Source of the DNA: Sphingobacterium wenxiniae
GTDB lineage: Bacteria > Bacteroidota > Bacteroidia > Sphingobacteriales > Sphingobacteriaceae
DNA: 64,000 bases
Direction: 5' to 3'
NCBI RefSeq assembly: GCF_900116225.1
Contig: NZ_FOZZ01000001.1
Span: forward strand, 248,001 to 312,000
How positions within the stretch are numbered: the stretch's first letter is position 1; each line of letters begins with the position of its first letter. Below are positions 965-5,134 of this stretch, in pieces. The translations under genes and the position numbers were made by a program. The notes under the pieces are model-generated. The model worked only from the letters and a program-made list of their open reading frames with translations. It made no database searches and was not told the origin of the DNA.

Positions 965-2455
965 CTATTCCCGATACTCCTTCCCTGTGAATATGTCAAT
1001 ATAATAGACCTCTTTTCCTTGCCCATTATTCAAACCTACTAAACCATCGGAAGATATGTGTTCATATCCCCTCTCTCCAATACGTTGTTTCCGCATATTA
1101 TCATAGAGATAGAAGCATTCATCTATGGAATCCCGCACAGCGAAAATCTGCTTTTCACCATTCAAAACAGATATATTAGAATAATCTGGCGACAAGTTCC
1201 AAGAACCTTCTTTTGTATTCCAAATCCCCCACATAGCTTTTTCTTCTCCTTTTTTTATCTCGGCTATATACAAATCTGCCCCAGCATGAGAAATATGTCG
1301 GATTTTCCCCACTTTCCAATCTTTAGGCAATGAAGCCGATTTAAACACCATGTGCTTATCAGGCCATATAGAATTTCCAACCTGATCATAGATAAAAAAA
1401 TCTTGTACATCGATCTCGCGTAGCAAATTACCCTTATCATCGATATATAGCCAATCATAAACCCAGACTGCATGATCGTAATTAAAACGTCCTAAGATAA
1501 AATACGGTGAATTGTTAATCGAATAGATCAAAGATACTTCTTTTAAAAAGTTACGTTGATCAGCAGTTGCCTGTCGGATTTGTTTTGGAAACGGCTTATC
1601 ATATTGTGGAAAGGCATAAATCTGATTTGTTTGCGGGTCTTTCAACAGCTTCGGGATAATAGGTAGAAAACGTTCTTGATTAATCGAATCCAGTAGAAAA
1701 GTTCCACCGGACAAAGTAACGGAAAGACGATCTACTCCAGTCAGATTCGCATGTACAGCCTTTCCTCCTCTCCCTACGTCATAAATAGCAAAAATTTTGC
1801 CCTGCGATTTTATATACCGATGGTTATCCAATACGAAATCAATATCACTTTTCAACTTTTTAAAACGCTTGTTCAACCGTTGATACAGGTTATTATTCCA
1901 GATATAATGTGTAGAATCAAGTTCATGGACGTATGAAGTATATTCATTATCGAAGTATGGAACATCATCTTTCACAAGCACTTGACCTGTTTCCAAAATT
2001 CGGGTTTCAACCTTAACGTAATTCGCTCTCTTTTTTATATGCTTACTAAAGATATTCCACTCCCATTTCCATATCGGCATTTTCTTTTCATGAGGTTCTT
2101 GCATCATTATAAGCGTAAACCCTCCTACCGCTGAAAGCGATATCTCTTTTTTAACATAAGGTTGTACAATCCTACCCATTCCATCAATTACTGCACATTC
2201 CTTTGCTTCATTCTGAACCACGGCATAACCAGTTGACGTGAATTTGCTCGCATTATTAAACGTTTGGGCAATCAATACATTTAAATCTTCATCTACATAT
2301 TGATATTTCCCCTGCTTCGTCAAAAATGGTATCCTATTTTCATGCTTGGTATGTAAAGAAGATTGTGCTCGGATTTCCATTGTGCTATTTCCACAACCTA
2401 TCAATAACCCCAATATAACGAGTATCCGAACCCGATAACTTATGTAACAGCACAT
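965..2455 (-). CDS. WG-repeat-like putative lipoprotein
   Basis: 496 aa. The N-terminus has a hydrophobic stretch ending in a lipobox-like LLIGC, so the product is probably a surface or periplasmic lipoprotein. The body resembles WG/beta-propeller-type repeats: segments such as LTKQGKYQYVDEDLN and CAVIDGMGRIVQPYV alternate short strands with glycine-rich turns. No catalytic motif is visible. It is monocistronic, with 144 bases to the response regulator gene downstream. The function is unknown. Proteins of this type in Bacteroidota are usually annotated only as WG-repeat proteins, and that family placement is moderate. Confidence 0.7.
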   Translation of the reverse strand: MCCYISYRVRILVILGLLIGCGNSTMEIRAQSSLHTKHENRIPFLTKQGKYQYVDEDLNVLIAQTFNNASKFTSTGYAVVQNEAKECAVIDGMGRIVQPYVKKEISLSAVGGFTLIMMQEPHEKKMPIWKWEWNIFSKHIKKRANYVKVETRILETGQVLVKDDVPYFDNEYTSYVHELDSTHYIWNNNLYQRLNKRFKKLKSDIDFVLDNHRYIKSQGKIFAIYDVGRGGKAVHANLTGVDRLSVTLSGGTFLLDSINQERFLPIIPKLLKDPQTNQIYAFPQYDKPFPKQIRQATADQRNFLKEVSLIYSINNSPYFILGRFNYDHAVWVYDWLYIDDKGNLLREIDVQDFFIYDQVGNSIWPDKHMVFKSASLPKDWKVGKIRHISHAGADLYIAEIKKGEEKAMWGIWNTKEGSWNLSPDYSNISVLNGEKQIFAVRDSIDECFYLYDNMRKQRIGERGYEHISSDGLVGLNNGQGKEVYYIDIFTGKEYRE

Positions 2456-2613: not shown

Positions 2614-4173
2614 CTATTTGGCATAAGATACCGATCTTGTCTCTCTAATCACGGTCACTTTAATCTGACCTGGATAAGTCATCTCGGTCTGGATACGGTT
2701 GGAAATATCTGCCGCTAAAATTTCAGCTTGTGCATCCGAAACTCTCTCCGATTCTACCACTACGCGCAATTCACGTCCTGCCTGGATAGCAAAAGTTTTC
2801 TCTACGCCTGGGTAAGATAAAGCAAGCTCTTCTAATTCTTTTAATCGTTTGATATAGCTTTCCACCACTTCGCGACGGGCACCCGGACGAGCACCAGAAA
2901 TCGCATCACAAGCCTGAACAACAGGTGAAATCATCGAAGTCATCTCGATTTCATCGTGGTGGGCGCCGATAGCATTGCATACATCTGGATGTTCTTTGTA
3001 TTTTTCTGCCAGTTGCATACCTAAAATAGCGTGTGGCAATTCCGGGTTATCATCAGGTACCTTACCAATATCGTGCAATAATCCAGCACGTTTAGCAAGC
3101 TTCACGTTTAAGCCCAGTTCCGCAGCCATAGTAGCGGCAAAGTTCGCAACCTCACGGGAGTGTTGCAACAGGTTTTGTCCATAAGACGAACGGTAACGCA
3201 TACGACCAACCATACGGATTAATTCCGGATGCAATCCGTGTATACCCAAATCGATAACGGTACGCTCACCGATTTCAACGATTTCATCTTCAATTTGCTT
3301 ACGTGTTTTCGCAACCACCTCTTCGATACGTGCAGGGTGGATACGACCATCCGTTACCAAACGGTGTAGGGAAAGACGTGCAATTTCACGACGCACAGGG
3401 TCGAATCCGGAAAGGATAATCGCTTCCGGTGTATCATCCACGATAATTTCCACTCCTGTAGCTGCTTCTAAGGCACGGATATTACGTCCTTCACGACCAA
3501 TAACACGTCCTTTAATCTCATCGTTCTCGATATTGAAAATAGAAACTGTATTCTCGATAGCCGATTCCGTCGCTGTACGCTGAATTGTTTGGATAACCAC
3601 CTTTTTAGCTTCTTTGGAAGCGGTCAATTTGGCTTCATCTACAATATCTTTGATCTGCATGATAGCTTGCGAACGAGCTTCTTCACGTAAAGAAGATACC
3701 AATTGCTCTTTGGCTTCGTCAGCAGATAAACCTGCAATGGTCTCCAATTGCTTTATATGTTGGTTTTTCAAATGCTCAACTTCATCACGTTTCTTTTCAT
3801 TCAGTTCGACAAGTTGATCCAGTTTTTTGCTCTTGTTATCAACCTCCTGCTTCTCCCGATTCAAGCTTTCAAGCTTTTGATTCAGAGATTGCTCTTTCTG
3901 TTTTATCGTATTCTCTTTTTGCGCTACGGCTTGGTTACGTTGGTTTACTTCTTTTTCATGTTCAGCCTTCAATTGTAGAAACTTTTCTTTAGCCTCCAAA
4001 TTGCGTTGCTTCTTATGATGTTCAGCCTGTTGTTCAGCCTCTTTGATAATGCGTTGTGCCTTTTCATTAGCGGATTGTTCTTGTTTTTTGAAAACGAGTT
4101 GTAACAAAAAACGACCGATAACCACCCCAACGATAAGCGAAATTATAATTGAAATTGTTGTTAATAAGTCCAT
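2614..4173 (-). CDS. rny: Ribonuclease Y
   Basis: 519 aa, the usual length. An N-terminal membrane anchor (about 4-26) is followed by a long charged coiled coil (about 30-200), a KH RNA-binding domain containing [12 protein letters not shown] (222-233), and an HD phosphohydrolase domain with H367-D368 in LLHDIGK. RNase Y is a membrane-tethered endoribonuclease that starts mRNA decay. It is the last gene of the pheT/zapA block and is preceded by the candidate 6S RNA. A strong terminator follows it. All family landmarks are present. Confidence 0.97.
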
Positions 4174-4245
4174 TTTTATATTAAGTTGTTTTTATTTAAT
4201 TGTTTATTCGTTTAATTGTTTACTTGCATTTTTTTCAAAAAAAAA

Positions 4246-4411
4246 CCGCAATTAAATATAACAGGTCCCATGTATTATTAAACTTCCATTACACATGATT
4301 GAGCAATTGATCATGACCGAGATGGCTTACGCAAAATGGCCTACATCTTGTTTTCGCTCGTGATATTGAAGCGTTAAGTTTAAAATAGTGACAACCCGAA
4401 TTTAATTGCGG
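4246..4411 (-). ncRNA. ssrS: Candidate 6S RNA (6S-Flavo type)
   Basis: In the 278-base gap between zapA and rny, CCGCAATTAAAT (4246-4257) and ATTTAATTGCGG (4400-4411) pair as a perfect 12-bp closing stem about 140 bases apart. Read on the minus strand, the 3' arm runs directly into nine T residues, so the RNA would end in its own closing stem. Inside, AAACUU/AAGUUU can pair, CATGAT/ATCATG makes a perfect hairpin, and AGAU..GGC/GCC.AUCU makes another. The layout (long rod with a central open region) and the position next to zapA match 6S RNA, which also follows zapA in enterobacteria. It would bind housekeeping RNA polymerase and regulate it by growth phase. A weak TTTT-N19-CGAATTTG promoter lies at the 5' end. 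The identification is by structure and synteny, without a covariance-model search. Confidence 0.72.
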
Positions 4412-4451
4412 CAAATTCGTCGTTATAAAGCTCTACTTAAAAGAACGATAT

Positions 4452-4742
4452 TTATTTACTAAAGAAATTGTTCAGCAGGGCATCCAATTCATGAACCTGT
4501 TGCTCGACCCCATCTTCATGTTGCTGGGCTTTGCGTTCAGCCTTTATCATCCCTGTAGCATATTGCAATACACACATAGACAATAAATCCTGCTTATCAC
4601 GAACTGCATAATTATCTTGCAATTCCTTTATTCTTTCATTAACCAATTTCGCAGCGTGGCGGATAATCTCCTCCTCCTCTGTCTCTACCCGCAATGGGTA
4701 GACACGGTCTGCGATATTTATCTTTATGGAAATCTCTCCCAT
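4452..4742 (-). CDS. zapA: Cell division protein ZapA
   Basis: 96 aa. The N-terminal part (MGEISIKINIADRVYPLRV) and the segment EEEEIIRHAAKLVNERIKE match the ZapA FtsZ-associated fold. A helical C-terminus follows that would form the dimer or tetramer coiled coil. ZapA stabilises FtsZ bundles at the division site in the cytoplasm. It lies in a same-strand row after pheT and a small coiled-coil gene and is followed by the candidate 6S RNA, which supports the assignment. Confidence 0.92.
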   Translation of the reverse strand: MGEISIKINIADRVYPLRVETEEEEIIRHAAKLVNERIKELQDNYAVRDKQDLLSMCVLQYATGMIKAERKAQQHEDGVEQQVHELDALLNNFFSK

Positions 4743-4794: not shown

Positions 4795-5103
4795 CTACTT
4801 CAACAAGCCTATACATTTGTCTATTTCTCGCACAAAATCGTTAATTTTTTGTTTTGTGTCAAGTATTTTTTCATTTATTGCTTCCCTATCCACATCCGAC
4901 TCTTCCAAGGATTTCGCAACTGCCAAAGCTTTAAGCTTTTCCTCCAATTGTTGTACTTTCGCCGAACTGGTTTCGAATGCAACCTGCAACGATTGTACTT
5001 CTAACTTTAGGAGGTCATTTTCCTCTTGTAAGGCCTCACACAATTGAATCAAATTTCTCGTTTTCTCAACGATGATATTCATTTGTGAAGATAGTGTAGC
5101 CAT
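4795..5103 (-). CDS. Small coiled-coil protein between pheT and zapA
   Basis: 102 aa counting from the ATG at 5103; an in-frame TTG three codons earlier is less likely. Nearly the whole protein is predicted coiled coil (LIQLCEALQEENDLLKLEV, KVQQLEEKLKALAVA). It has no signal peptide or catalytic motif. It starts 31 bases after pheT and ends 52 bases before zapA, so it is very probably co-transcribed with both. By size, shape and neighbour it could be a ZapB-like partner of ZapA, but I see no sequence motif that proves this. Confidence 0.8.
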   Translation of the reverse strand: MATLSSQMNIIVEKTRNLIQLCEALQEENDLLKLEVQSLQVAFETSSAKVQQLEEKLKALAVAKSLEESDVDREAINEKILDTKQKINDFVREIDKCIGLLK

Positions 5104-5134
5104 ATTTCGCAATTATACTTTATATGGAGCTGAA

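Follow-up and report, generated by a model that had tools for sequence, protein, structure and literature searches.

Evidence for a 6S RNA gene between zapA and rny in the Sphingobacteriaceae that Rfam models do not recognize

6S RNA is an established class of RNA whose action is to block RNA polymerase. Its canonical form, SsrS (RF00013), is rod-shaped, with a central bubble between a closing stem and a terminal stem. In beta- and gamma-proteobacteria, 6S RNA follows zapA (PMC7641849); in Escherichia coli, ssrS begins 41 nt after zapA and the downstream gene is fau/ygfA. The 6S-Flavo RNA is described by Rfam family RF01685 (Weinberg et al., 2010, PMC2864571). 6S RNA has also been detected as a transcript and listed among the small RNAs of Flavobacterium psychrophilum (PMC9723704), and it was detected, together with product RNAs, in Bacteroides thetaiotaomicron (PMC7366714). 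Finally, the Ms1 RNA of Actinobacteria has a 6S-like fold, binds core polymerase, and is missed by sequence searches, its family having been found largely through gene order (PMC9130861).

We analyzed a stretch of 64,000 nt of the Sphingobacterium wenxiniae genome (contig NZ_FOZZ01000001.1, positions 248,001 to 312,000), hereafter the window. This DNA very probably carries a single 6S RNA gene (ssrS) on the minus strand, extending from about position 4412 to a T9 tract at 4237-4245. A 6S RNA candidate had been proposed at this place in a first-pass annotation, and position, homology, and a covarying structure now support that proposal. The gene is assigned to 4237-4412 (minus strand) from its conservation and from the match, at 4239-4412 with 139.7 bits, of a covariance model termed R1, which was built from ten Sphingobacteriaceae sequences and has a rod-shaped fold. 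Its 5' end would be at about 4412 or some tens of nt further upstream, and its 3' end in the T tract.

The upstream neighbor is zapA (4452-4742, minus strand; PF05164, 4.6e-20) and the downstream neighbor is rny, encoding RNase Y (2614-4173, minus strand; TIGR03319, 4.6e-200). Identification of both proteins by Pfam and NCBIfam confirms the slot between zapA and rny that had been read from the letters. The zapA-rny gap measures 278 nt in the window, with the candidate RNA inside it and 40 nt between the zapA stop and the stem. As the first-pass annotation had stated, no open reading frame competes with the RNA, the sole one within the stretch being a 41-aa frame with a TTG start. Further out, the 496-aa protein encoded downstream of rny (965-2455, minus strand) has no Pfam family above the cut-off. 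A 105-aa coiled-coil protein (4795-5112, minus strand), encoded between pheT and zapA, is kept in every locus of the family and has a weak, sub-threshold match to ZapB (PF06005, E 0.019). The order coiled coil-zapA-6S recalls the ZapB-ZapA-SsrS order of beta- and gamma-proteobacteria (PMC7641849).

The perfect 12-bp closing stem noticed earlier is confirmed, as an inverted repeat formed by 4246-4257 and 4400-4411. Read on the minus strand, 4246-4411 starts with CCGCAAUUAAAU and ends with AUUUAAUUGCGG, which pair over 12 bp. Nine U follow the stem directly (4237-4245, minus strand); this T-run, probably a terminator, is kept in relatives. The T9 tract claimed for the 3' end therefore exists, just beyond the interval 4246-4411 in which it had been placed. 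The predicted folding energy is -45 kcal/mol, better than that of 200 out of 200 dinucleotide shuffles (z -2.73). Taken alone, the closing stem is weak evidence, since with the composition of the window 0.85 inverted repeats of 12 bp separated by 80-250 nt are expected by chance and one is found.

Among 101 Sphingobacteriaceae genomes, a 190-nt stretch has strong blastn matches within the genus as well as in numerous other genera, and in more distant genera its two arms match separately at the correct spacing. R1 finds the RNA in 74 of these 101 genomes, at one locus each apart from antisense echoes; such echoes arise at the same loci because a long hairpin is symmetric, and they were therefore excluded. 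The RNA is hence conserved in most of the Sphingobacteriaceae genomes sampled and, where found, single-copy. A 28-nt piece around the 5' strand of the bubble occurs in 77 records, nearly all of them named Sphingobacterium or Parapedobacter and the others Sphingobacteriaceae-like. In all 72 records having both genes, this piece is flanked by zapA and rny and shares their strand. The zapA-RNA-rny order and strand are kept in 30 out of 30 family loci examined, with total zapA-rny gaps of 216-424 nt and with spacers from the U tract to rny that differ widely in length and sequence.

From the outside inwards, R1 folds into the closing stem P1 (13 bp), two stems of 9 and 4 bp, the inner closing stem P2 (7 bp), the central bubble, and a terminal stem of 6+3+5 bp. 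In 40 Sphingobacteriaceae sequences, 96.7% of the cells pair in this fold vs. 86.0% in shuffled alignments (sd 0.4), and double, compensatory changes are seen in 31 of 47 pairs vs. 16.5 in shuffles, a count that none of 500 shuffles attains; these counts lean towards the R1 structure, to which the alignment was fitted. An artifact is argued against by the size of the effect and by the failure of an alternative interior on the same alignment. Sliding the pairing partners lowers pairing to 32-45%. The RNA has the rod architecture of 6S RNA, in which a long closing stem and a terminal stem-loop enclose a central bubble, and this fold covaries in these 40 sequences and in the 13 Flavobacteriales-type sequences described below. 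The R1 matches measure 162-178 nt (174 nt in the window) between model ends rather than transcript ends, within the 160-200 nt or so of 6S RNA.

On the minus strand of the window, the 5' arm of P1 (4400-4411) and its 3' arm (4246-4257) belong to a covarying helix with double changes in 7 of 13 pairs. P2 follows, with its 5' arm UUAAACUU at 4376-4383 and its 3' arm AAGUUUAA at 4278-4285; this helix has 98.6% of cells paired and is common to 6S-Flavo. The 5' strand of the central bubble (AACGCUUCAAUAUCAC, 4360-4375), a candidate template for product RNAs, exceeds every other unpaired stretch in conservation (1.72 bits per column), and the 3' strand (4286-4300) is unpaired in the covarying fold. 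The terminal stem is closed by GAGCGA (4354-4359) and UUGCUC (4301-4306), whose outer pairs covary in relatives (5/5), and its interior (4307-4353) contains two more short covarying helices, paired at 96.6% and 97.5%. The internal hairpins of the first-pass annotation stand only in part: a single terminal stem-loop covaries, and the multi-hairpin interior of minimum free energy finds no support from covariation. The latter, with a hairpin AACGCU/AGCGU in the 5' strand of the bubble, has 73.7% of cells paired vs. 74.1% in shuffles and zero double changes.

The closest described relative is 6S-Flavo. In Flavobacteriales, RF01685 loci sit between zapA and rny, with all three on the same strand, in 12 out of 12 loci examined; this position as a family-defining trait of 6S-Flavo is a result of the present analysis. 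R1 detects, on the sense strand only, 13 out of 13 Flavobacteriales-type loci (E 2e-7 to 6e-4), namely these 12 loci and one more from a family where RF01685 also scores. Its fold covaries in the 13 sequences too, with 90.4% of cells paired vs. 78.2% in shuffles and double changes in 17 pairs vs. 7.8. The Sphingobacteriaceae RNA and 6S-Flavo have in common the sequence AAACUyAACrCU ahead of the bubble and CUAAaCyUGU...GrAGUUU following it. The two RNAs are alike in slot, strand, and fold, and they share sequence blocks at P2, in the terminal stem, and in both strands of the bubble, whereas the outer stems, the interior hairpin, and the bubble sequence have diverged.

Rfam itself is silent on this RNA. 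The check suggested by the first-pass annotation, with the 6S (RF00013) and 6S-Flavo (RF01685) models, gives nothing for the window, an outcome that, as one half of the criterion set there, would speak against 6S RNA. No Rfam family reaches its cut-off in the window, none appears at E 10 in the local stretch, and no credible RNA family is found in 12 relatives. The whole genome holds no credible match to either model; RF00013 returns nothing at E<=10, either for the window stretch or for the genome, and does not attain the 6S family cut-off. RF01685 exceeds its 85-bit cut-off in none of 39 family genomes; it has 36 sub-threshold matches in them, and the highest-scoring one (26.7 bits) falls on this very RNA in a genome of the same genus. 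Since the same models mark 6S RNA in the zapA-rny slot elsewhere in the phylum, the miss reflects the divergence of the Sphingobacteriaceae form. For RF00013, it is a matter of model coverage and not of biology, because genomes with curated 6S-Flavo matches also lack an RF00013 match. Being below 85 bits, the RNA is placed within 6S RNA as a subfamily that is sister to 6S-Flavo, outside RF01685 as modeled.

The same slot recurs across Bacteroidota. Over 90 genomes of the phylum, RF00013 has matches in 22 genomes, all outside the class to which S. wenxiniae belongs; 22 out of 22 precede rny by 26-133 nt, on the rny strand, and only one is above the curated cut-off (47.1 bits). In these deep branches, RF00013-type 6S RNAs are seen between zapA and rny, nearly all of them sub-cut-off. 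Most 6S genes in such groups probably escape Rfam annotation as well. Because RF01685, R1, and RF00013 matches all fall there, zapA-rny is the 6S slot in deep branches, Flavobacteriales, and Sphingobacteriaceae. R1 found nothing in the other families of the class sampled, nor in the RF00013-positive 6S RNAs of the deep branches. In several other families of the class, zapA stands beside rny with no match between them and a gap mostly too short for a 6S RNA; there, 6S would have been lost or moved, and any 6S genes would be located elsewhere. Compared with canonical 6S RNA, the S. wenxiniae RNA has the same rod, follows zapA, and occupies the slot before rny used in deep branches of the phylum. 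It differs from E. coli ssrS by its downstream gene, rny instead of fau/ygfA, and by the lack of a detectable RF00013 score. With Ms1, it shares a 6S-like fold and a route of discovery through gene order; Ms1 differs in binding core polymerase and in having other gene neighbors (PMC9130861).

Other explanations must be weighed against a 6S RNA gene. The element might be a cis-acting leader of rny, read only within a zapA-rny transcript, in which the stem and the U9 tract form an attenuator controlling RNase Y. In favor of this reading, the element immediately precedes rny, is encoded on the same strand, and finishes with a U tract, within an invariant gene order. However, the stretch from the U tract to rny varies widely in length and sequence among relatives, as the range of zapA-rny gaps (216-424 nt) illustrates, its homologues in that slot match RNA families curated as 6S, and 6S is among the small RNAs detected in a Flavobacterium (PMC9723704). 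We regard this reading as very unlikely, though the two roles could coexist in one element.

That neither Rfam 6S model recognizes the RNA would also fit a replacement of 6S in the Sphingobacteriaceae slot by some other conserved small RNA, such as a base-pairing regulator. Such a replacement is highly improbable: the fold and the bubble-flanking blocks (AAACUyAACrCU; CUAAaCyUGU...GrAGUUU) are common to 6S-Flavo, and the model of the Sphingobacteriaceae RNA finds the 6S-Flavo loci. As for a chance inverted repeat next to a T-run in an AT-rich intergenic gap, which the expectation of 0.85 repeats of such spacing per window might have suggested, it deserves practically no credence, being refuted by family-wide conservation and strong covariation.

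A mechanism for the 6S RNA can be proposed from what is known of the 6S family. The rod would mimic an open promoter and would be held by RNA polymerase carrying the housekeeping sigma factor, and transcription would be dampened when nutrients run out. The RNA would be released as the polymerase uses the conserved 5' strand of the bubble as template for a short product RNA. This strand (AACGCUUCAAUAUCA) is the best-conserved single-stranded stretch, its 1.72 bits per column comparing with 1.26 for all unpaired columns, as would be expected of a candidate product-RNA template. The closing stem and U9 probably also terminate transcription. The -7 motif of Bacteroidota, TAnnTTTG, shows no clear enrichment over AT-rich background in the 3' strand of the bubble; UAAACyUG is present there in many homologues, with a score no better than that of background positions. 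A sigma-70 scan, built for another promoter type, recognized no promoter of the RNA's own.

A further conserved element, CGTTCTTT (4440-4447, minus strand), is located between zapA and the RNA, just past the zapA stop codon and about 20-40 nt before the 6S stem. In 76 out of 76 testable Sphingobacteriaceae records, GTTCTT is found no more than 54 nt upstream of the RNA. It is followed in 69 of the 76 by AGAGC (4430-4434 in the window), which can pair with GTTCT. GTTC(T/A)TT or a close form is also found in Flavobacteriales loci and apparently, as judged by eye, in deep-branch loci. This element may be a promoter or a processing element. One may speculate that zapA-6S is a very old pair predating the split between Bacteroidota and Proteobacteria, joined in Bacteroidota to rny because RNase Y and the GUUCUUU element process 6S from the zapA transcript or drive its synthesis; we consider this scenario rather doubtful. 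If it were true, the supply of 6S RNA would be tied to cell division and RNA decay.

The RNA described here is an addition to the known 6S family that Rfam does not see. A text search of an accessible collection of papers returned none mentioning both 6S RNA and Sphingobacterium; the gene may have been predicted before. An annotation gap is filled, as a whole Bacteroidota family that appears devoid of 6S in Rfam-based annotation has one. R1 provides a ready covariance model for Sphingobacteriaceae 6S RNA, and across much of the phylum the zapA-rny slot is a reliable marker of 6S. A linkage of zapA with 6S, already known in Proteobacteria, also exists in Bacteroidota, and the phylum-wide zapA-6S-rny order, an echo of the zapA-ssrS of Proteobacteria, is the most interesting part of these results. 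Finally, product RNAs, promoter mimicry, and stationary-phase control become testable in the Sphingobacteriaceae.
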